Assembly: GCA_946403565.1 (NCBI GenBank)
Contig: CAMJAJ010000127.1
Coordinates: forward strand, 1-5,161
DNA: 5,161 nt
Direction of reading: 5' to 3'
From: an uncultured Treponema sp.
Lineage (GTDB): Bacteria; Spirochaetota; Spirochaetia; Treponematales; Treponemataceae
Each line of letters begins with the position of its first letter. The first letter of the stretch is position 1. A program made the translations under genes and the position numbers. Positions 2,151 to 5,125 of the stretch are shown in pieces. The notes under the pieces were generated by a model that searched no databases, was not told the DNA's origin, and saw only the letters and a list, made by a program, of their open reading frames with translations.

Positions 2151-2152
2151 TT

Positions 2153-2193
2153 CTATTCGCCAAACACTGCAACTTGCAGTAAATGGCGATTAG
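2153..2193. promoter_or_regulatory. Palindrome copy 1, operator candidate over the -35
   Basis: This imperfect palindrome is centred on C2173. The core ACTGCAACTTGCAGT (2166-2180) has perfect 7-base arms. After three unpaired positions on each side the symmetry resumes (ACCGCT against TGGCGA), then one mismatch and three more pairs, for 16 of 20 symmetric positions. It overlaps the predicted -35 TTGCAG of the ATPase promoter. Two arm blocks separated by an internal gap suggest a dimeric or tetrameric DNA-binding protein. Confidence 0.7.
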
Positions 2194-2202
2194 TGATACA
2201 CT
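2174..2202 (+). promoter_or_regulatory. Predicted promoter of the ATPase operon
   Basis: TTGCAG (2174-2179) lies in the right arm of palindrome 1. After 17 bases comes TACACT (2197-2202), preceded by an extended TG (2194-2195). The -10 occupies the eight-base spacer between the two palindromes, so both palindromes touch promoter or leader DNA. The predicted start is near 2209, inside palindrome 2. The -10 hexamer itself is only a 4 of 6 match. Confidence 0.5.
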
Positions 2203-2203
2203 T

Positions 2204-2244
2204 CTATTCGTCAAACACTGCAACTTGCAGTAAATGGCGATTAG
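2204..2244. promoter_or_regulatory. Palindrome copy 2, covering the mRNA leader and ribosome site
   Basis: This copy has the same structure as copy 1 and is centred on C2224. Its single base change (T2211) turns a C-G pair into a T·G pair with G2237, so an RNA hairpin would still form. The last bases TTAG run into the AGGAGG ribosome site (2243-2248). It could act as a DNA operator, an RNA structure limiting translation, or both. Confidence 0.65.
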
Positions 2245-2248
2245 GAGG
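2243..2248 (+). promoter_or_regulatory. AGGAGG ribosome site, unusually close to the ATPase start
   Basis: A full-strength AGGAGG is only three bases from ATG 2252, which is shorter than the usual five to nine. The other in-frame start, ATG 2234, has no ribosome site but immediately follows a TAA (2231-2233) of the repeat frame. Start choice is therefore not settled; 2252 is preferred. Confidence 0.6.
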
Positions 2249-2251
2249 CCT

Positions 2252-3514
2252 ATGCAGGAACTTTTGGACCGCCCGACGTACCTCAAGAAGCTTACCGACC
2301 GCATGCACAACGGCGAGGTGAAGATCATCACCGGCCCCAGACGGTGCGGCAAATCTTGGCTTTTGAAGAAGGTGTTCAGGGCCTATTTGCTCTCACAGGG
2401 CGTGAAAGACGAGAACATCATCATCGTGTCGCTGGACTTGGAGGACGAAGACGGCGACGAAGACATGAGCGACCGCGAGCTGCTCAAGAAATACCTGTAC
2501 GGCAGGATAGGGTCAGAAAGCGAGCAGTACTACGTGATTCTGGACGAAATTCAGGAGGTCGAGGGCTTCGAGCGGCTGGTCAACGGGCTTGCGGCACGTG
2601 AGAACGTCGATGTGTACATCACCGGCAGCAACTCCCGCTTCCTGTCGCAGGACATACGGACAATCTTCCGGGGCCGGGGGGACGAGGTGCGCGTGTACCC
2701 GCTTTCTTTCTCCGAGTTCTGCCAGGGCAGGACGGAGGATCGGGCCAGCCTCTGGAAAGAGTACTATACATACGGGGGTATGCCCAGACTGCTCCGGCTG
2801 GGGACTCCGGAACAGAAGGCCCGCTACCTGCAGCAGCTGTGGAACAAGACTTACATCGACGACGTGGTTGAGCGCAACAATGTCCGCAACAAGACGGCCC
2901 TTGAGTCTATGGTCGATGTCCTCTGCTCCTCTGTCGGCTCCTTGGTCAATCCCAGCAAGCTCAGGAACACCTTGCAGTCCGTCCAGAAGGTCAAGCTGGA
3001 CGACGAGACCGTGGCAAGCTACATCTCCTGTTTGGAGGGCGCGTTCCTCTTTGAAGGCGCGAGGCGTTACAACATCAAGGGCAAAAAGTATTTCGACGCG
3101 ATCAAAAAGTATTATGCGGCGGACGTGGGACTTCGGAACGCACGGCTGAATTTCCGCCAACAGGAAGTGACCCATATAATGGAAAACATCGTCTACAACG
3201 AGCTGCGTTCCCGCGACTATCTGGTGGACGTGGGACTGGTGGAGTCGCGCGAGATGCACGATGGCAGGCAGCAGTTCATCCAGCGTGAGGTCGATTTCAT
3301 CGCGACCAACGGCATAGACAAGTTCTACATACAGTCGGCATACGCCTTGGACACAGAAGAAAAGAAGTCGCAGGAGCTGGCCTCCCTGCTCAAGATTGAC
3401 GACTCCTTCCGCAAAATCGTCGTTGTCGGCAGCGATATCGAGAGCTACACCGACGAGCACGGAATCACCTTCATGGGCCTGTTCCAGCTGCTGCTGGGGA
3501 ATGTGGGCTTGTAA
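2252..3514 (+). CDS. AAA-type ATPase with C-terminal DUF4143 domain
   Basis: The protein is 420 residues from ATG 2252, or 426 from ATG 2234. The N-terminal AAA_14 P-loop domain carries Walker A GPRRCGKS (28-35), Walker B YYVILDEIQ (93-101, D98 and E99) and a sensor-like YITGSNSRFLS (122-132). YYTYGGMPRLL (171-181) follows, then a winged-helix-like linker. The C-terminal DUF4143 domain has ENIVYNEL (311-318), EVDF (346-349) and YIQSAYAL (359-366). That arrangement recalls a PD-(D/E)xK nuclease fold, but the usual active-site lysine is missing, as in most of this family, so cleavage is not expected. An acidic run, LEDEDGDEDMSD, lies at 63-74. The cellular role of these widespread ATPases is poorly defined. 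The protein is cytosolic, without membrane segments. It is first in a probable operon with the polymerase 34 bases downstream and has the tandem palindromes at its promoter. Confidence 0.92.
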   Translation: MQELLDRPTYLKKLTDRMHNGEVKIITGPRRCGKSWLLKKVFRAYLLSQGVKDENIIIVSLDLEDEDGDEDMSDRELLKKYLYGRIGSESEQYYVILDEIQEVEGFERLVNGLAARENVDVYITGSNSRFLSQDIRTIFRGRGDEVRVYPLSFSEFCQGRTEDRASLWKEYYTYGGMPRLLRLGTPEQKARYLQQLWNKTYIDDVVERNNVRNKTALESMVDVLCSSVGSLVNPSKLRNTLQSVQKVKLDDETVASYISCLEGAFLFEGARRYNIKGKKYFDAIKKYYAADVGLRNARLNFRQQEVTHIMENIVYNELRSRDYLVDVGLVESREMHDGRQQFIQREVDFIATNGIDKFYIQSAYALDTEEKKSQELASLLKIDDSFRKIVVVGSDIESYTDEHGITFMGLFQLLLGNVGL

Positions 3515-3548: not shown

Positions 3549-4913
3549 ATGGAACGAACCTATCTGGCCATAGACTTGAAGTCATTTTATGCCTCCGTTG
3601 AATGTGTCGAGCGGGGACTCGACCCCTTGACCACCAGCCTTGTCGTCGCCGATGAGTCCAGGACGGAAAAGACGATCTGTCTGGCCGTTACCCCGCCATT
3701 GAAGGCGTACGGGCTTTCCGGGCGCAGCAGACTCTTTGAGGTCGTCCAGAAGGCGCGGGAGGTGAAGGCCCGGACCGGCAGGGAGCTGGAATACATAATC
3801 GCGAAGCCCCGCATGGCCCTGTACCTGGAATACTCGGCCCGCATCTATGGCATCTACCTGAAATACTTCAGTCCCGACGACATACACGTCTACAGTATCG
3901 ATGAAGTCTTCATCGATGCGACCTCATACCTGGGCCTGTACGACATCAACGCCCACGCTTTGGCCCGCAAGGTAATCAGGGACATCCTGTCGCAGACGGG
4001 AATCACGGCGACGGCGGGAGTCGCGCCGAACCTGTACCTGGCAAAGATTGCGATGGACATTGTCGCCAAGCATGTCGAGGCAGACGAGGACGGCGTTCGC
4101 ATTGCGGACCTCTCCGTGCGGGAATACCGGCGGATGCTCTGGGCCCATACCCCCATCACCGATTTCTGGCGGGTGGGGAAGGGTGTCGCGGGGCGGCTCG
4201 CCGACCTGGGGATCCATACGATGGGTGACATCGCCCGCCAGTCAATCAGGAACGCGGAGGTTCTGTACAAGCTGTTCGGAATCGACGCGGAGATCCTGAT
4301 CGACCATGCGTGGGGGCTGGAGCCGTGTACGATGCGGGACATCAAGGACTACAGGTCCTCCTCCAAAAGCCTGAGCGCGGGACAGGTCCTGCAGTCGCCG
4401 TATACGGCGGACAAGGCCCGCATTGTCGTCCGGGAGATGGCGGAGGTCATGGCCCAGAACCTGCTTTCAAAAGGGCTGGCGGGGGACTGCTTCAGCGTCT
4501 TTATATCCTACGACAGGTCGTCGATTACGGACGGCTACGAGGGGGATGTCGAGCAGGACTTTTACGGGAGGCCCGTACCCAAACCGTCCCACGGCAGCGT
4601 AAGCTTTCCGACAGCTACAGCCTCCCTGCACCGGATCAGCGAAGGTATCCTCTCGGTGTACGACCGGATCGTGGACAGGAGCCTGTATGTGCGCAGGTTG
4701 AGCGTCAGCGTGGGCGGCGTGGTTGCGCAGCAGGGGGAGCAGCCCGAGCTGTTCACGGATGCCGCGGCCCAGGAAAAGGAGCGGTCGCTCCAGAAGACGA
4801 TGCTGAAGATTCAAGGCAAGTTCGGCAAGAACGCCATCCTGAAGGCGAGCGACTATGAGGAAGGTGCGACGCTGCGGGACCGCAACGGGCAGATAGGAGG
4901 GCATAAGGCATGA
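3549..4913 (+). CDS. Y-family translesion DNA polymerase (UmuC/UvrX-like)
   Basis: This 454-residue error-prone polymerase is predicted to copy past damaged bases. The palm/finger region has D9 in AIDLKSFYASVE (7-18, with Y14 as likely steric gate) and the catalytic SIDEVF (116-121, D118 and E119). AVTPPLKAYGL (46-56) fits the nucleotide-pocket loop. A helix-hairpin-helix thumb spans about 207-230 and the little finger about 275-390. QPELF (398-402) matches the QxxLF sliding-clamp motif. The conserved tail, ending in RNGQIGGHKA, is intact, so the gene looks functional. ATG 3549 fits the family N-terminus. TTG 3540 and GTG 3543 are alternatives, and the ribosome site is weak (GGTG is three bases away). 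The gene sits 34 bases after the ATPase with no clear promoter or LexA-type box between. Its stop overlaps the YolD-like start. It is the UvrX/UmuC type of Gram-positives and some spirochaetes rather than classic DinB. Confidence 0.95.
   Translation: MERTYLAIDLKSFYASVECVERGLDPLTTSLVVADESRTEKTICLAVTPPLKAYGLSGRSRLFEVVQKAREVKARTGRELEYIIAKPRMALYLEYSARIYGIYLKYFSPDDIHVYSIDEVFIDATSYLGLYDINAHALARKVIRDILSQTGITATAGVAPNLYLAKIAMDIVAKHVEADEDGVRIADLSVREYRRMLWAHTPITDFWRVGKGVAGRLADLGIHTMGDIARQSIRNAEVLYKLFGIDAEILIDHAWGLEPCTMRDIKDYRSSSKSLSAGQVLQSPYTADKARIVVREMAEVMAQNLLSKGLAGDCFSVFISYDRSSITDGYEGDVEQDFYGRPVPKPSHGSVSFPTATASLHRISEGILSVYDRIVDRSLYVRRLSVSVGGVVAQQGEQPELFTDAAAQEKERSLQKTMLKIQGKFGKNAILKASDYEEGATLRDRNGQIGGHKA
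4895..4900 (+). promoter_or_regulatory. Ribosome binding site of the YolD-like gene, inside the polymerase gene
   Basis: AGGAGG lies nine bases before ATG 4910, within the last codons of the polymerase. Together with the ATGA stop-start overlap it indicates coupled translation of the two proteins. Confidence 0.85.
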
Positions 4914-5125
4914 TCCGGAAGAAGTATGATGACATGCTGGACTACGAGTGGACGGGTTCTCCGTCGCACCCAAAGATGCCCCTGTCCAGCCGGGCCAAGA
5001 TCTTCATGCCCTTTGCGGCGCTCAAGGGCTACGAGGAGCTTTTGGCGCAGGTGAGGCTCCAGGCCGAGGCGGAAACAGCTGGCGGCCCGCAGTCACCAGG
5101 TGGCCAGCCGGAGGGGCTGGACTGA
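4910..5125 (+). CDS. YolD-like small protein, partner of the Y-family polymerase
   Basis: This 71-residue protein starts with ATG overlapping the polymerase TGA. The core HPKMPLSSRAKIFMPFAAL (20-38) followed by KGYEELL matches the YolD-like pattern (HP-x-M-x-x-x-x-RA-x-x-F-x-PFAAL-x-GYE). Such proteins are regularly encoded directly beside UmuC/UvrX-type polymerases in Firmicutes and related bacteria. They have been compared to UmuD-like accessory subunits, but a defined biochemical function is not established. The last ~18 residues (AGGPQSPGGQPEGLD) are low in complexity and probably disordered. It has no membrane segment or enzymatic motif. The gene context, a 4-base overlap with a good ribosome site, strengthens the assignment. 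The remaining 36 bases of the window after its stop hold no recognisable feature or terminator. Confidence 0.85.
   Translation: MIRKKYDDMLDYEWTGSPSHPKMPLSSRAKIFMPFAALKGYEELLAQVRLQAEAETAGGPQSPGGQPEGLD

Follow-up and report, generated by a model that had tools for sequence, protein, structure and literature searches.

What are two near-identical palindromes doing immediately in front of an ATPase gene? The question is raised by a stretch of 5,161 nucleotides (nt), contig CAMJAJ010000127.1 of assembly GCA_946403565.1 from an uncultured Treponema sp. (hereafter the window), in which a gene for an AAA_14/DUF4143 ATPase (2252..3514, plus strand) is preceded by two palindromes of 41 base pairs (bp). 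Judging from sequence comparison, the palindromes are probably the ATPase gene's own on/off switch, because matching sites go with the ATPase gene in many microbes. More specifically, we lean towards the view that they are the dedicated operator of a self-contained ATPase module, with the ATPase as the likeliest binder, repressing its own gene.

Copy 1 (2153..2193) and copy 2 (2204..2244) are both odd-centred, have 16 and 15 of 20 arm pairs, respectively, and lie 51 bp apart. They coincide with a single direct-repeat pair of 43 nt (2151-2193 and 2202-2244; 42 of 43 positions identical, start-to-start distance 51), in agreement with the initial annotation of this DNA, which had described a duplicated palindromic unit with one difference, and the ACTGCAA-C-TTGCAGT core that it had called perfect is indeed perfect in both copies. 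The 8-base spacer that it had reported separates the 43-mers, whereas the 41-mers are separated by 10 bases. The rest of the window holds no further palindrome at 15/20, and among 300 first-order Markov resamples of the window one had a palindrome of at least 16/20 and 19 had one of at least 15/20. Because such palindromes are rare in these resamples, two near-identical ones in register are not attributable to chance.

A conserved palindrome linked to the ATPase gene

To relate the palindromes to the gene that they precede, we used the best 80 of 484 loci from a genome scan with the ATPase, among which the nearest relative (L032) comes from an uncultured Treponema metagenome-assembled genome and is 88% identical; the window itself is accordingly likely to stem from a rumen-type Treponema. 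Upstream palindromes were evaluated in 77 of these loci (not in L022, L024 and L026) and in the window, with near-duplicates among the evaluated loci (L010 and L029; L016 and L018-L020). The initial annotation had named repeated occurrence directly before DUF4143 ATPase genes as the observation that would favour its idea, and this is what we found: a homologous 40- or 41-bp palindrome lies upstream in the window and in each of the 27 relatives of at least 60% identity that could be evaluated. By symmetry alone 26 of these 28 loci reach 14/20, and L023 and L025 have a symmetry of 13/20 and match the consensus at 33 and 34 of 40. At a threshold of 15/20, palindromes were found in 33 of the 78 evaluated loci, as compared to 18 of 336 regions upstream of other open reading frames (ORFs; mechanical ORFs of at least 200 amino acids (aa), not checked as genes) and 80 of 3,940 other windows from the same loci.

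In the Treponema loci L001, L002, L003, L006, L022, L028 and L032, the ATPase is directly preceded by one to three copies of the window's palindrome, and an alignment of 14 Treponema copies shows CG and TGCA to be invariant on both sides. L022 lacks the first part of its ATPase but has kept the site. In Bacteroidota-type relatives the palindrome is 40 bp long and even-centred; L014, a contig of 4.7 kb that bears a Lachnospiraceae label, has a Bacteroidota-like ATPase and site and may be mis-binned. Counting as copies only those at least 70% identical to the best one, 30 loci have more than one, with a period of 50-52 bp in 21, 73-76 bp in seven, 82 bp in one and 203 bp in one; L064 has a further copy 117 bp upstream. 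The proposal in the initial annotation that a spacing of about five helical turns would place two proteins on the same DNA face fits the 50-52 bp period.

A host regulator, for example from the DNA-damage response, could bind the palindromes instead, with both the ATPase and the Y-family DNA polymerase as targets. The polymerase gene does follow the ATPase gene in the window, and Y-family polymerase genes are often damage-regulated. However, the polymerase is found beside the ATPase in none of the 80 loci, and neither are the small ORF, the 192-aa protein or the deaminase of the window (tblastn). A host regulon should, moreover, show the site elsewhere, whereas a covariance model of the Treponema site (R1) found only this promoter in its seven source genomes (24 hits at 12 places, E up to 1, with 150 candidates scored per genome). 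We thus regard a host regulator as unlikely.

Across 196 Treponema-group genomes, with 33 candidates scored per genome under strict filters that may miss further sites, R1 matched 10 at E 0.001, namely the seven source genomes, G187, G267 and G281. In eight of the 10 the site adjoins a close ATPase (three copies of which are broken), in one a remnant, and one site is an orphan. G187 has, at a contig end, an ATPase fragment (72%) that contains a stop; in G267 two palindromes precede a remnant that can be recognised by its C-terminal end and begins, by eye, like the ATPase; and G281 has a weak R1 match with no ATPase within the 3 kb examined. Conversely, all eight genomes with an ATPase match of at least 65% identity carry the site, including G005, G006 and G187, in which the ATPase is broken. 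The corresponding Bacteroidota-type model (R2), applied to nine genomes at E 0.01, found ATPase promoters, a copy after the stop codon in L011, a site in L276, an orphan in L275, and three weak places. In L276 the site stands before a different DUF4143 ATPase. Around position 1501 of both L275 and L276 the palindrome lies beside the same divergent gene, followed in L276 by the different DUF4143 ATPase and in L275 by none. A simpler search, with the 15-base core and up to two mismatches, proved too loose, giving 9-18 forward places per genome as compared to 2-13 for the reversed pattern. The same core gave at least 120 stretches in a viral scan, which we did not use, as a 15-base pattern is often expected by chance in a set of that size (an estimate, made with no control).

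The initial annotation had held that copies at random positions unlinked to ATPase genes would speak against it; such copies were not seen, save for orphans in G281 and G016, the L276 copy and the three weak R2 matches. Palindromic repeats of this size are common in bacteria, and the two orphans are what a dispersed repeat would leave, of the repetitive extragenic palindromic (REP) type or resembling a miniature inverted-repeat transposable element (MITE), that happens to precede the ATPase here. Since the model scans, within their candidate limits, find the site almost only at ATPase promoters, and homologous sites precede the same gene despite different neighbours, we consider this highly improbable.

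More distant relatives have palindromes of the same build in other letters. At about 46-53% identity, same-length palindromes of different spelling occur in loci whose record titles name Bifidobacterium, Muribaculaceae, Lachnospiraceae, Elusimicrobiaceae and Methanoplasma; 26 of 50 such loci reach 14/20 and 11 of 50 reach 15/20. For L053, four neighbouring ORFs matched no NCBIfam family at 1e-20, so that only the title of its record marks it as archaeal. Among distant Treponema ATPases, 16 of 23 reach 14/20, as compared to 41 of the 336 other ORFs (p 2e-9), the scan of the former having reached nearer the start codon than that of the latter. These 23 loci, drawn from a larger list, are mostly new, with near-identical L386 and L388, L387 and L392, and L394 and L395, and one or two may repeat earlier loci. 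In most of them a copy ends 3-20 bp before the start, and their palindromes are similar in length and different in spelling. In control palindromes selected on the same score, pairing falls off in a similar if softer way, and because of this the pairing profile is weak evidence for a fixed length. Other DUF4143 paralogues gave a mixed picture: of 60 chosen among the matches listed in five genomes and G001, eight lacking a readable Walker motif were dropped, and of the remaining 52, 10 reach 15/20 (p 0.0016 versus 18 of 336 in the control) and 10 have a flanking repeat. Four loci of the Treponema group (L325, L326, L328 and L359) encode other DUF4143 ATPases of about 400 aa with their own 41-bp odd-centred palindromes, again in other letters, which end 11-19 bp before the start in L325, L326 and L359 and at the start in L328.

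Promoter-like elements within and between the copies

In the window, a -35-like TTGCAG (2174..2179, plus strand, 3/6 to consensus) forms the centre of copy 1, and a -10-like TACACT (2197..2202, plus strand, 4/6), with an extended TG at 2194-2195, follows at a distance of 17 bp and ends one base before copy 2. Copy 2 covers the presumed transcript start and the first two bases of a ribosome-binding AGGAGG identified by eye (2243..2248, plus strand), which is followed by the ATG at 2252. Starting from an in-frame ATG at 2234, within copy 2, the ATPase would be six residues longer; the AGGAGG better suits ATG 2252. A terminator-like hairpin with a T run lies before the promoter (2058-2092) and is the sole one in 1600-2400, where shuffles average 1.2.

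This layout, which the initial annotation had predicted, is weak by consensus, and a consensus scan of the window that needs 9/12 matches returned 0 promoters. It nevertheless recurs. A -35-like hexamer is found at the equivalent place in L001, L006, L028 and L032, and in all eight Treponema loci with a site, the window included, a -10-like hexamer (4-6/6) lies 0-3 nt upstream of the last palindrome with a TTGNNN hexamer (3-4/6) exactly 17 bp upstream of it, in a comparison that took the best fit over spacers of 16-18 and gaps of 0-4 and had no shuffled control. In Treponema loci with a full upstream palindrome, the TTGNNN hexamer is the centre of the upstream copy.

The Bacteroidota-type loci place their promoter element within the palindrome itself. 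TAnnTTTG is the consensus of the Bacteroidota -7 box, and the core of the last copy spells it in 14 of 18 loci, as compared to none of 13 upstream copies (p 2e-5; the Bacteroidota-type counts here and below cover 31 copies from 18 loci). L012, L016, L018 and L021 are the exceptions, and in L016 a -7-type box is seen by eye downstream instead. Because the box occurs in last copies and never in upstream ones, the pattern argues for a DNA operator rather than an RNA hairpin. Provided that the ATPase is the regulator, the dyad site overlaps the predicted promoter of the regulator's own gene.

Were the palindromes to work at the RNA level, the ATPase message would begin with a hairpin that controls its translation or stability. 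Copy 2 would lie in the presumed leader and end at the ribosome site, and its predicted fold (-15.4 kcal/mol, z -1.98) is matched or exceeded in stability by 8 of 200 shuffles. In both alignments the covariation of paired columns exceeds that of shuffles (A1, counting pairs changed on both sides, 3/500; A3, by covariation score, 0/500), and G-U exceeds A-C by 41:9 in last copies. Covariation between the halves is, however, expected of a dimer site and a hairpin alike, much of the G-U excess accompanies the -7 box, and G-U and A-C are balanced elsewhere (14:10 in upstream copies, 11:15 in Treponema). Upstream copies precede the presumed start and yet are conserved equally, and in 9 of 14 Treponema sequences arm positions 11-13 do not pair with 29-31. 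No Rfam family matched within the window at the gathering score. An RNA element is in our judgement improbable, and we favour a site that a symmetric protein reads on double-stranded DNA.

The site follows the ATPase more than its host

Half-site distance and ATPase distance rise together across 41 loci that have sites (r 0.67, Mantel p 0.001), a value that holds for loci with sites, as the set was hand-listed and leaves aside loci lacking a clear palindrome, some near-duplicates and L028 (broken frame). The partial correlation is 0.63 for protein given host phylum (p 0.001) and 0.07 for host given protein (p 0.12), with host phyla assigned from record titles; host phylum thus adds little to the protein as an explanation of the site, which also tells against the host regulator considered above.

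Self-binding with autorepression is the simplest reading of these data because, among the proteins tested, the ATPase alone is common to the loci. The proposed module would consist of one to three palindromes around the promoter followed by a STAND-like AAA+ ATPase of the PDC-S01 type. A symmetric protein dimer would read each 40- or 41-bp dyad, touching either half in two zones separated by about one helical turn, and tandem copies five or about seven turns apart would bring two dimers to the same side of the DNA. Once bound, the dimers would cover the -35 and -10 elements (Treponema) or the -7 box (Bacteroidota type) together with the start, keeping the gene off until they were released, for instance by a changed nucleotide state or by a target that draws the protein away. 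Of possible binders we regard the ATPase itself, by way of its predicted winged helix, as the likeliest. The initial annotation had suggested autoregulation through a winged-helix-like linker, and a winged helix is present in a confident structure model; that the ATPase binds the site, that binding represses the gene and that release is tied to defence is what we infer.

Several observations weigh against this reading. Among loci at about 46-53% identity, 24 of 50 have no palindrome of 14/20, nor do 7 of the 23 distant Treponema ATPases. The link to the recognition helix is weak (partial r 0.17, as compared to 0.21 for residues 176-195 and 0.19 for residues 216-235), and joint vertical inheritance of promoter and gene would likewise yield a site that follows the protein. 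There are orphan copies, in G281 and G016, and in L276 a copy serves a different DUF4143 ATPase. Finally, the position of the site with respect to the promoter differs between Treponema, most Bacteroidota-type loci and the loci L012, L016, L018 and L021, so that a single mode of repression suits some loci better than others.

The surroundings of the module point to mobility. Host sequence found before the palindromes recurs after the ATPase stop codon in L012 (187 bp, 94%), L035 (162 bp, 96%) and L047 (242 bp, 91%). Direct repeats flank 16 of 73 ATPases as compared to 15 of 199 other ORFs (p 0.002); five of these 15 control ORFs resemble DUF4143 or other AAA ATPases by their first residues, and without them the control falls to 10 of 194 (p 1e-4, post hoc). 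Placing the ends at random, in an earlier control, had yielded a direct repeat at E 1e-2 in 25 of 237 cases. In L012, L013, L017, L035, L047, L056, L060 and others, the module of palindromes and ATPase lies between long, imperfect direct repeats of host sequence; the window has no such flanking repeat. In L047 (record title Bifidobacterium colobi) the ATPase sits between the two 242-bp copies, and two genomes of the same group have an empty site, with one 242-bp copy (about 110-120 bp extra inside), flanks that match on both sides, and no ATPase within 13 kb. L047 is thus likely to represent an insertion, less likely a loss, with a long target duplication. ATPase relatives in plasmids (217 records) and phages (15 records) were all below 60% identity by tblastn.

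These data raise the alternative that the palindromes serve mainly for recombination, or as the ends, of a mobile ATPase cassette, their overlap with the promoter being secondary. Besides the flanking repeats and the filled and empty sites of the L047 group, palindrome copies found also after the stop codon in L011, L017, L069 and L033 would suit it. Yet the repeats vary from 23 to 242 bp, mostly end outside the palindromes; one filled/empty pair was found; three of the 16 (L011, L033 and L069) are or contain palindromes; and in most loci the palindromes are on the 5' side only. Cassette ends would require neither helical spacing nor promoter boxes, and we give the idea little credence as compared to that of an operator. 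Going further, PDC-S01 ATPases might be STAND-like sensors whose dimers rest inactive on their own tandem 40-bp palindromes, the promoter serving as operator and resting place alike, such that removal by a phage product, foreign DNA or nucleotide state derepresses the gene and frees the effector, and the module might spread with its operator and be able to insert with long target duplications; this fuller scheme we hold to be speculative and rather doubtful.

The ATPase, its neighbours and related systems

On the minus strand the window begins with a cut gene for a CBM48-type protein followed by a cytidine deaminase gene, and a 192-aa protein that has no family match is encoded between the deaminase and the ATPase. 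The Y-family polymerase gene (3549-4913) follows the ATPase, and its end is overlapped by a small ORF (4910-5125, 71 aa) with no Pfam or NCBIfam match, whose place and start presumably recall YolD-like partners of Y-family polymerases.

The ATPase, of 420 aa, is of the PDC-S01 type. It exceeds the Pfam cut-offs for PF13173 (116.8 bits, cut-off 27) and PF13635 (63.5 bits, cut-off 28.1) and, by profile, fits PADLOC's single-gene defence candidate PDC-S01 (PDLC04787, 389.8 bits, residues 1-416). Domain limits read from the secondary structure of the model (pLDDT 89.5, pTM 0.89) give an AAA core (residues about 1-185), a helical linker (186-209), a winged helix (about 212-289) and a nuclease-like C-terminal domain (about 292-415), the last being DUF4143 in Pfam and PD-(D/E)XK in the literature. 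PD-(D/E)XK nucleases carry a lysine at the position where the window ATPase reads YIQSA. The C-terminus of the L276 ATPase, of another DUF4143 subfamily, reads EEVDFVLVKDTKVVAIEVKSN and has the lysine that is absent from the window's subfamily; because of this difference, the L276-type branch may be an active nuclease and the window's branch not. A sequence search of solved structures with the ATPase gave nothing significant (best E 0.25); by fold, the nearest to the model are 2qen and 2fna, followed by NLR, CED-4 and Orc1/Cdc6 chains, in a comparison (VIA) whose rows cover model residues 1-304 well.

Among the papers listed in searches of open-access PubMed Central on DUF4143, COG1373, AAA_14, PDC-S01 or combined subjects, none was found to describe the site. 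PDC-S01, an ATPase fused to a PD-(D/E)XK domain (PADLOC-DB; PMC12988326, PMC13356809), is ranked fourth by frequency among the defence types of prokaryotes (PMC12988326) and first among the individual defence loci of a rumen survey (PMC13356809), and most candidates of its kind await experimental validation (PMC12988326). Passages on PDC-S01 from these two papers mention no operator, trigger or action. A conserved, subfamily-specific 40-bp DNA site would be a concrete candidate ligand for PDC-S01 ATPases, and the site predicts which ATPase should recognise which site.

Among regulators of defence genes, RptR is alike, as far as its description in PMC12255303 goes, in that a homodimer binds repeated palindromic sites over a defence promoter and represses it, repression being what we would expect here too. 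It differs in being a separate small helical regulator of a restriction-modification island that reads the 6-bp TAGCTA (PMC12255303), whereas here the dyad is 40/41 bp, copies recur at intervals of 50-76 bp and there is no conserved gene for a separate regulator. Autorepressed toxin-antitoxin operators and restriction controller proteins share with the proposed module that a small defence-type module controls its own promoter via overlying DNA sites (as treated in PMC12255303). Unlike in those systems, the sole shared candidate regulator here is a large ATPase, with no partner gene conserved among those tested. The archaeal AAA+ ATPases 2qen and 2fna and Orc1/Cdc6, of which the latter bind origin DNA according to their entry titles, have the same AAA core and winged helix by fold, at a sequence identity to the window ATPase of 13-18%.
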